In this document: piece after piece, positions 287 to 2,495 of the stretch | How positions within the stretch are numbered: position 1 is the first letter of the stretch | How the letters are laid out: each line of letters begins with the position of its first letter | Assembly: GCA_027485645.1 (NCBI GenBank) | Contig: JAIXQR010000005.1 | Location: forward strand, 1-64,000 | Direction of reading: 5' to 3' | Source of the DNA: a bacterium | Lineage (GTDB): Bacteria; Armatimonadota; Fimbriimonadia; Fimbriimonadales; Fimbriimonadaceae | Length of the DNA: 64,000 nucleotides | Notes under the pieces: model-generated | What the model was told of the DNA's origin: nothing | Databases searched by the model: none | What the model saw: only the letters and a program-made list of their open reading frames with translations | Position numbers and translations under genes: made by a program

Positions 287-1240
287 CTAGTTTTTCGACG
301 CGGAATTCTCGAGCTCGTTGGCCCGAGCATCCATGTTCGGTAGATGCTCTGTCGCGAACGACCGAAGGTCTCTCGCGGCGAAGTCTGCTCCGGCGGACAA
401 GAAGCGGGCGGGATCCTGATTGACCATCGCTCCGCCGACTCCAATCGTGTAGGGCTGGCGTCGGTCTCGGACTCGGACGAGTTCCTTCAGCAGCGTTTCG
501 GTATCCGCCGCGCTCTCTTCCGCGGCACAGCTCAGAAGGACTAACGTTGGCCGGTGATTGCGGACGGTCGTGATGAAGCTTTTAACCGGCACATTCGCGC
601 CGAGGAACAGCGTTCTCCATCCGTGAAGTCGAAGGTAGTCGGCAATCATTCGCAGGCCGATGACGTGCCAAGAGTTCGGGGCACAACCCAAAAGGGCAAC
701 TCGGCCGTGGCGGCGCATCGGTCCCATGATCTGCGACGTTCGGGCGAGCATGCGCTCCGTCACCGCGCTGGCCATGTGTTCTTGCGCTTCGTCAATGGCT
801 TCTACCTTCCACCAGTTCCCGACCATGGTCATGGCCGGAGCAAGAAGATCTTCATAAATCTCGATCAACGAAACCTGCGCTCGGAAGGCGGCATCCATGA
901 TTTCGGAGCAGGTTTGCTCATCGCCCTGAACCGCCGCTCGGGCGTACTCCTTCGCAAGCTCGCCTAGATGAACGTCGGCCGCTCGAAGCTCCGGCTGCGT
1001 GAACACCGAATTGACGATCGCCTCAATCTCTGGAGTGGCGAGGCTGTAATAGACCTGCCGGCCGGACTTTGTGGCACGGACGATCCCACGCGCTCGCATT
1101 CTGGCGAGGTGGTTGCTCACGTTCGGTTGCTTCAGATCGGTTGCTTCGCAAATTTCCGAGACGTTTCTATGCCCCGCTCGAAGCTCCGCCAGAATTTGGC
1201 GACGCGAAGTATCTCCGAGTTCTTCATAGACGTTTATCAT
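287..1240 (-). CDS. ArsR-type HTH fused to CarH-like B12-binding domain (putative light or cobalamin sensor)
   Basis: A 317-residue one-component regulator. Residues about 1-85 form an ArsR-type winged helix (recognition helix around QPNVSNHLARMR, beta-wing KSGRQVYYSL). Residues about 95-170 form a helical B12-binding cap, and 178-300 a Rossmann-type cobalamin domain. W144, E154 and H155 reproduce the Wx9EH motif of CarH/LitR photoreceptors, and H192 sits where the lower axial His of B12 is found, although the usual surrounding sequence is only partly kept. CarH proteins normally carry a MerR-type HTH, so the ArsR head is unusual. It is transcribed divergently from the acyl-CoA dehydrogenase; a 25-bp dyad lies between them and may be its operator. 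B12 binding is well supported; light sensing is inference. Confidence 0.85.
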   Translation of the reverse strand: MINVYEELGDTSRRQILAELRAGHRNVSEICEATDLKQPNVSNHLARMRARGIVRATKSGRQVYYSLATPEIEAIVNSVFTQPELRAADVHLGELAKEYARAAVQGDEQTCSEIMDAAFRAQVSLIEIYEDLLAPAMTMVGNWWKVEAIDEAQEHMASAVTERMLARTSQIMGPMRRHGRVALLGCAPNSWHVIGLRMIADYLRLHGWRTLFLGANVPVKSFITTVRNHRPTLVLLSCAAEESAADTETLLKELVRVRDRRQPYTIGVGGAMVNQDPARFLSAGADFAARDLRSFATEHLPNMDARANELENSASKN

Positions 1241-1279
1241 ATTGACCTAGACATATTACAATACGCACGACTGATATGT

Positions 1280-1304
1280 TTCGTCATAAAAAATTACTGA
1301 CGAA
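1280..1304. promoter_or_regulatory. Dyad in divergent intergenic region, possible operator
   Basis: Perfect 7-bp arms TTCGTCA and TGACGAA separated by an AT-rich 11-nt spacer, midway between the regulator start (1240) and the acyl-CoA dehydrogenase start (1383). Size and symmetry suit an ArsR-type dimer site. It could instead form an RNA hairpin in a leader of either gene. Confidence 0.4.
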
Positions 1305-1382: not shown

Positions 1383-2495
1383 ATGTATCTATCCATCCAT
1401 CCTGAAGAATCAACGTTTCTTGATCGTGTTCGCGAGTTCGTCGCGACTGACGTTTTGCCCAACACCCGCAAATGGGAAGAACAGACTGGCTTCGACGACG
1501 AAATTTGGGAGAAGCTCGGGAACGTTGGCCTGCTCAAGATGGGCCTGCCCGTTGACCAGGGCGGCGTCAGCTGTGCGGCGTACTGCGAAGCCGTTCGAGA
1601 ACTCGCCAAGGGCGATCCGGCACTTGCAATGAACGTTGCCGCCATCAACGCCCTTGTCGTGGCTCACATCGTCGCCTTCGGAACTCCGGAACAGAAGGAA
1701 AAGTATCTGGCCGACGTCACGGCGGGCCGAGTGAAGGTCGCCTGGGGTCTCACCGAACCAGATGCCGGTTCGGATGCCCGACGCGTTAAGACCGTCGCCG
1801 AGCCTATCGAAGGACGAGATGGCTTCTACAACATCACTGGCCGCAAGATGTTCATCACGAACGGCGGAAAGGCCGACCTCATCGTGATCATCGCTCGAAC
1901 GAGCGAGAAAGAACTCAGCGCCTTCCTCCTCGAGACCAACCAGCCTGGATTCACCCTCGAGAAGCGAATTCATACGGTCGGCGTTTCGGCCTCGAACACC
2001 GTTCAGTTCGGGCTCAACAACGCGGTTGGCTGGCACACCCCTTGTAAGTTTGAAGAAGCCATCGGCCTTCTCTATCGCGGCCGACTCGGTATCGCCGGAA
2101 TGGCGGTTGGCATCGCAGAAAAGGCACACGAGCTCGCCGTCGAGTACTCCAAGCAGCGAGAGCAGTTCAACCGACGCCTTTGCGACATGCAGAGCGTGCA
2201 AAACATGCTCGCCGACAGCGAAGTCGAAGTTGAAGCCGCACGGTTGCTTCTCCAAAAGGGCGCGCAGATGTTCGACATGGGCCTGCCGATCATCAAGGAA
2301 AGCTCGATCGCCAAGCTCTACAGCAGCGAGACCGCAAATCGCGTGACCAACCGCGCCGTGCAGATCCATGGCGGTCGCGGCATGACCCGAGAGTTCCTCG
2401 TGGAGAAGCTGTGGCGCGACGCCAAGCTCACCGAAATCGGCGAAGGCTGTTCGGAAATTCAGCGAATGGTCATCGCAAAGCAGATCACCAAGTAA
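1383..2495 (+). CDS. Acyl-CoA dehydrogenase
   Basis: A 370-residue FAD flavoenzyme of the acyl-CoA dehydrogenase family, which desaturates acyl-CoA at C2-C3 and passes electrons to ETF. Visible landmarks are the N-terminal helical domain, the FAD/substrate signature WGLTEPDAGSDA in the beta-domain, FITNGG shortly after it, and the C-terminal ...EIGEGCSEIQRMVIA, in which E354 aligns with the catalytic base of medium- and short-chain dehydrogenases. Length is normal. No other beta-oxidation gene is adjacent, so the substrate cannot be read from context. It is divergent from the B12-type regulator and may be under its control. A purine-rich GGGAGAGA stretch lies about 15-25 bases upstream of the start. 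Confidence 0.92.
   Translation: MYLSIHPEESTFLDRVREFVATDVLPNTRKWEEQTGFDDEIWEKLGNVGLLKMGLPVDQGGVSCAAYCEAVRELAKGDPALAMNVAAINALVVAHIVAFGTPEQKEKYLADVTAGRVKVAWGLTEPDAGSDARRVKTVAEPIEGRDGFYNITGRKMFITNGGKADLIVIIARTSEKELSAFLLETNQPGFTLEKRIHTVGVSASNTVQFGLNNAVGWHTPCKFEEAIGLLYRGRLGIAGMAVGIAEKAHELAVEYSKQREQFNRRLCDMQSVQNMLADSEVEVEAARLLLQKGAQMFDMGLPIIKESSIAKLYSSETANRVTNRAVQIHGGRGMTREFLVEKLWRDAKLTEIGEGCSEIQRMVIAKQITK

Follow-up and report, generated by a model that had tools for sequence, protein, structure and literature searches.

We analysed a 64,000-nucleotide stretch of bacterial DNA (the window) in which a 317-aa ORF on the negative strand encodes a putative B12-dependent regulator, with an acyl-CoA dehydrogenase gene diverging from it (Table 1). 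Pfam placed three domains in the protein, all above cut-off: HTH_5/ArsR at residues 11-55 (E 1.4e-11), the B12-binding_2 cap at residues 96-166 (E 5.8e-15) and B12-binding at residues 182-288 (E 3.2e-19). The head also matched the NCBIfam model HTH_metalloreg (ArsR/SmtB) with 74.9 bits (cut-off 55), and neither Pfam nor NCBIfam gave any match to a MerR-type DNA-binding domain, in agreement with the sequence-only reading, in which the head had been assigned to the ArsR and not to the MerR type. The NCBIfam equivalog for CarH stayed below its cut-off (49.5 bits vs 400). In the family alignment the head was near-invariant in its recognition segment, QPNVSNHL; a metal-binding Cys/His set was missing from it, and its single cysteine, C31, was mostly Val in the homologs. 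No bilin-binding globin-like domain was present: there was no Pfam match past the Rossmann domain and no room left in the protein.

The regulator is not a chance ORF, since a near relative (record L003) carries a 97% identical protein and full-length homologs, ~30-64% identical, occur throughout the family and phylum. Record L003 is titled Chthonomonas calidirosea, a name that may be a mislabel. Of 291 genomes, 55 matched the regulator at E ≤ 1e-25, a few of them partially; the full-length homologs were distributed over many same-family genomes and four other families of the phylum. A scan of genome-contig proteins returned one near-identical record only, and the plasmid collection contained no record with a single match covering at least 80% of the query. 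In L079 (G005) and L080 (G094) only the B12 part matched the regulator and the N-termini differed. Standalone ArsR matches in G028, G032, G072 and G077, located away from acyl-CoA dehydrogenase, were taken as other ArsR genes.

Table 1 Features of the regulator locus (window coordinates)
Feature	Position	Strand	Evidence
ArsR-B12 regulator gene, 317 aa	287..1240	(-)	ORF, Pfam, homologs
ArsR-type winged-helix DNA-binding domain, residues 1-75	1016..1240	(-)	Pfam HTH_5, NCBIfam HTH_metalloreg, conservation
B12 cap four-helix bundle, residues 96-166, with G141, W144, E154, H155	743..955	(-)	Pfam B12-binding_2, TtCarH alignment
B12-binding Rossmann domain, residues 182-288	377..697	(-)	Pfam B12-binding
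W144 codon (= CarH W131)	809..811	(-)	TtCarH alignment
E154-H155 codons (= CarH E141-H142)	776..781	(-)	TtCarH alignment
H192 codon, expected lower cobalt ligand (= CarH H177)	665..667	(-)	TtCarH alignment
Predicted dyad operator ACATATCAGTCGTGCGTATTGTAA, 15 nt before regulator start codon, 18.2 bits	1256..1279	(-)	Palindrome search and matrix
Possible sigma-70-like promoter of regulator, ATGACG-N18-TATTGT, operator-overlapped	1258..1287	(-)	Weak, read by eye
Divergent acyl-CoA dehydrogenase, conserved neighbour, doubtful target	1383..2495	(+)	Pfam, neighbourhood comparison, operator scan

The cobalamin site and its nearest relatives

The regulator and 44 family sequences were aligned with CarH of Thermus thermophilus (TtCarH, from plasmid pTT27). 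CarH W131, E141, H142 and H177 corresponded to W144, E154, H155 and H192 of the regulator, and CarH G128, G199 and P203 to G141, G214 and P218. Three differences absent from the earlier reading were found as well: CarH H132, G174 and E175 were replaced by K145, N189 and S190, respectively. E154, H155 and H192 were kept in 43 of the 44 aligned sequences. The position of W144 was Trp in only 11/44 and Tyr in 29/44, so that the Trp of the Wx9EH motif proposed earlier is not a family feature, although in the regulator it matches TtCarH together with the other three residues of that proposal. His was not found at the position of K145 in any of the 44 sequences. The sole exception to the conservation of E154, H155 and H192 was a homolog in G012 (L066, 8367-9323), which has lost all three and kept the ArsR head; the operator upstream of the ECF gene of that genome (see below) is also kept. 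This homolog may function independently of B12, much as class II LitR does in comparison with CarH.

The signature of light-responsive cobalamin domains defined with SignatureFinder comprises GxxW, EH, GxxH and GxxxP, and its residues have been linked experimentally to the AdoCbl light response in other proteins (PMC11796333). Three of these four elements were present in the regulator, GxxW (G141-W144), EH (E154-H155) and GxxxP (G214-P218); the GxxH element was broken (N189-S-W-H192), and the Gly in question was present in 27 of 44 homologs. The single-sequence AlphaFold model of the regulator (pLDDT 53) was too poor for residue distances or a fold search.

Since the position of CarH H132 is occupied by Lys here and never by His in the family, the bis-His light state of CarH cannot form in the regulator. 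CtMerR, with Arg at this position, is light-responsive (PMC11796333), so photolysis does not require the upper His; and CarH H132A is mostly still tetrameric after light (PMC10442372). For these reasons the light step of the regulator, if any, should differ from that of CarH and would have to follow the type known from CtMerR and the photocobilins. The CarH-like core on an ArsR head of the earlier description was confirmed, and a light- or B12-dependent repressor with a different operator (see below) is the most probable reading. Compared with CarH and class I LitR, the regulator has the same B12 cap and Rossmann core, the same W/E/H/H residues and, putatively, the same repressor logic; it differs in its ArsR head in place of a MerR head, in the 24-bp dyad operator, in the lack of H132, and in the W position, often Tyr in the ArsR-headed family.

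Among solved structures (phmmer against the PDB) the top match was CtMerR (8jbs, 82 bits), followed by the photocobilins 8j2x and 8j2w (72 bits), a corrinoid methyltransferase subunit (39 bits) and MetH (~26 bits), with a weak match to AerR. The best solved matches of the regulator are therefore validated B12 photoreceptors and not methyltransferases. CtMerR (PDB 8JBS/8JBT, SignatureFinder), the closest of them, shares the absence of the upper His while being light-responsive, but has a MerR-type head and belongs to another organism. The photocobilins SasPcob and AbDPcob have the AQEHxA cap motif and the FLGAxVP stretch in common with the regulator, which, unlike them, ends after the Rossmann domain, with neither a bilin-binding nor a diguanylate cyclase domain. 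The MetH/MtaC corrinoid modules share the cap, the Rossmann fold and HxxG; however, the MtaC-type match was far weaker than the photoreceptor match, and MetH of this genome, its only other protein with a B12 cap domain, has the enzyme-type LPFVLQSA replacing EH.

The operator and the ECF sigma gene

A palindrome search in the upstream regions of 34 homologs revealed a common 24-bp dyad, ATATATCA-N8-TGATATAT. Its score was 106 over 16 columns, against 68-76 in resampled sequences, and 127 over 20 columns, against 77-91. The 24-bp form rests on a seeded run, since the unseeded 24-column search settled on a different pattern, which possibly arises from the coding ends of the upstream stretches. 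When upstream regions were scanned with the resulting matrix, sites of at least 11.4 bits were found in 21 of 44 homologs, the window included, the majority lying 13-41 nt ahead of the start; the other 23 had no strong self-operator. Homologs held out of training presented sites of 18 bits (L069) and 16 bits (L062), and in L072 a perfect 25.5-bit site was located just downstream of the regulator, fronting a fasciclin gene. The possible promoter of the regulator was below the threshold of the promoter scan and was not reported by it. A whole-genome pattern search was done in 12 genomes, two of which (G030 and G063) are represented by part of their matches. Among the matches listed, zero-mismatch copies lay at the regulator itself in G001, G015, G018 and G036 and elsewhere only at two other promoters, both in G031, and one- and two-mismatch copies recurred upstream of an ECF sigma gene.

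Orthologs of this sigma gene were collected from a set of relatives, and their upstream DNA was scored with a matrix trained on regulator-proximal sites only. Where the regulator was present (30 genomes, including two known from partial copies only and one degenerate), the gene was preceded by a site of at least 13 bits in 30/30; where it was absent, such a site was seen in 0 of 12 (highest, 10.0 bits), a pattern that is not phylogenetically independent (two well-supported contrasts, eight on the best tree). The exception was G007 (77% complete), which has a site of 20 bits and in which the regulator was not found. The genome of the window has the operator before its own ECF sigma gene, which is unlinked to the regulator; the sigma-gene site in G000 is on C3, upstream of 105,663. 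At the first sigma loci, column-permuted matrices averaged 5.7-8.1 bits vs 18.9 for the true matrix. On the sigma tree, well-supported branches carried at least two losses or gains of the regulator and the best tree about eight, and operator and regulator went together in every supported contrast; as two contrasts alone cannot reach significance, the strength of the case lies in the matrix test and not in the tree counts. From these comparisons, the regulator most likely represses its own gene and the distant ECF sigma gene. At L154, L155, L139 and other ECF loci, a gene for a conserved ~120-aa protein (MKFVVI..K) that matched neither Pfam nor NCBIfam lies divergent to the ECF gene, the operator region being common to both. 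In G036, whose ECF ortholog is weak, a 19.9-bit operator-like site (L117, 3667-3690) precedes a different, sigma-factor-looking gene.

In G031, a genome without this ECF gene, one copy of the operator precedes a fasciclin gene, and a second copy lies 2 nt before an FAD amine oxidase/oxidoreductase-DUF1365-CMAS (UfaM-like) operon. The light-inducible LitR region of Pseudomonas contains an FAD oxidoreductase and UfaM (PMC9758184), and by analogy the putative targets in G031 resemble known light regulons. Photolyase and phytoene synthase loci were rejected as direct targets: no operator was found at photolyase loci, nor at phytoene synthase/carotenoid loci, with the single exception of G018, where a crtI-like gene has a 17.2-bit operator (L243, 4004-4027) ~24 nt upstream. 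A putative promoter, TAACY-N15-17-CGTA(G/T)A, was common to the photolyase genes of G000, G001, G014 and G018 (L159, L160, L168 and L169), whose copies differ in spacer, and occurred also at three fasciclin promoters (L184, L187 and L191) and one regulator promoter (G020, L020); it was not found at carotenoid loci. The pattern, defined after most of its matches were seen, occurred just eight times over 1.56 Mb of loci, always 4-50 nt before a gene start; random sequence is estimated to yield about nine chance matches, so their number says little and the position before gene starts is the unusual part. A step from this particular sigma factor to the photolyase and fasciclin promoters is thus a lead, given that the pattern is post hoc.

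Proposed function and alternatives

We favour, with moderate confidence, the view that the regulator is a transcriptional repressor that binds AdoCbl, is released by light and, using the DNA logic of ArsR proteins, governs a LitS-like sigma cascade. In the dark, AdoCbl coordinated by H192 beneath the four-helix cap would keep the protein as a DNA-binding oligomer, whose ArsR heads would occupy the 24-bp dyad (12-0-12) in two promoter regions, that of the regulator gene itself and that of the unlinked ECF sigma gene, repressing rather than activating these genes. Light would cleave the Co-C bond, the protein would leave the DNA, and the sigma factor would be made and would switch on protective genes, the candidates being photolyase and fasciclin. 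In favour of this view are the domains and residues, the photoreceptors among the solved matches, the adenosyltransferase of this genome (see below), the self-operator, the site at the ECF sigma gene and the G031 targets; against it are the missing H132, Tyr for W144 in most homologs, the broken GxxH element, the near absence of operators from photolyase and carotenoid loci, the post hoc promoter motif, the few independent contrasts and the 23 homologs with no strong self-operator. The predicted dyad operator and self-operator and the winged helix are shared with the ArsR/SmtB metalloregulators; unlike these, the regulator lacks conserved metal-binding cysteines and has an extra B12 sensor of ~240 residues.

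The same residues and operator would also fit a sensor of B12 availability that acts as a repressor at high AdoCbl levels and leaves the DNA once AdoCbl runs short, light being irrelevant in the cell. CarH needs AdoCbl for its DNA-binding tetramer (PMC4557120), and AdoCbl can be made by this genome, since it encodes a PduO-type adenosyltransferase. We regard such a role as unlikely: in the whole-genome pattern search no operator lay, among the matches listed, at cobalamin, methionine or ribonucleotide reductase genes, the putative targets being the ECF sigma gene and, for G031, the fasciclin gene and the UfaM-like operon. Moreover, this genome and most of its genus lack methylmalonyl-CoA mutase, the obvious AdoCbl partner of the acyl-CoA dehydrogenase, and a link to it was rejected. 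The missing upper His ligand, the photo-oxidative kind of the G031 target genes and the AerR match could instead suit a sensor of redox state, oxygen or singlet oxygen working through cobalamin (AerR-like or by cob(II)alamin chemistry) with no direct AdoCbl photolysis; such a sensor seems improbable, as both the EH motif of the cap and the nearest structural matches are of the AdoCbl photoreceptor type.

Local metabolic control of the acyl-CoA dehydrogenase is suggested by the arrangement of the locus, as this gene is the divergent neighbour in most same-family loci examined and the operator lies within the shared intergenic region. However, the operator hugs the start of the regulator and not that of the dehydrogenase, and no operator was found upstream of the dehydrogenase in any of the seven genomes where the two genes are apart (0/7, vs 30/30 for the ECF sigma gene), which makes this explanation very improbable. 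In ten genomes without the regulator, the DNA upstream of the dehydrogenase had no site at 13 bits and one at 11.0. As it carries no operator when located elsewhere, the dehydrogenase is probably not the main target and was rejected as such; in the window it may be co-regulated. The neighbourhood probably reflects conserved order and autoregulation and not the purpose of the regulator. The dehydrogenase named in the sequence-only reading is thus a conserved neighbour, but probably not the conserved target.

B12 photoreceptors of the CarH type, and light-responsive B12 domains fused to an HTH, are known as a class; no ArsR-headed B12 photoreceptor was found in the open literature searched. LitR is connected with LitS in Streptomyces. 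Light-induced carotenogenesis in that genus proceeds via the ECF sigma factor LitS (Takano 2005, as cited in PMC9758184). We propose, more tentatively than the light-released repressor itself, that the ArsR-headed B12 photoreceptors may be a separate family in one phylum, with no bis-His switch and with a light-ECF sigma-photolyase/fasciclin cascade analogous to LitR-LitS but independent of it. With no upper His ligand and a variable capping Trp, the ArsR-headed family offers an experiment of nature on the residues that a light switch needs, and the operator and the sigma target are concrete enough for direct testing. If this proposal is true, a B12 light-sensing core would have acquired a DNA-binding head of a second, unrelated class and been set above a sigma factor, and there would be a light-response pathway for a phylum where the literature searched shows none.
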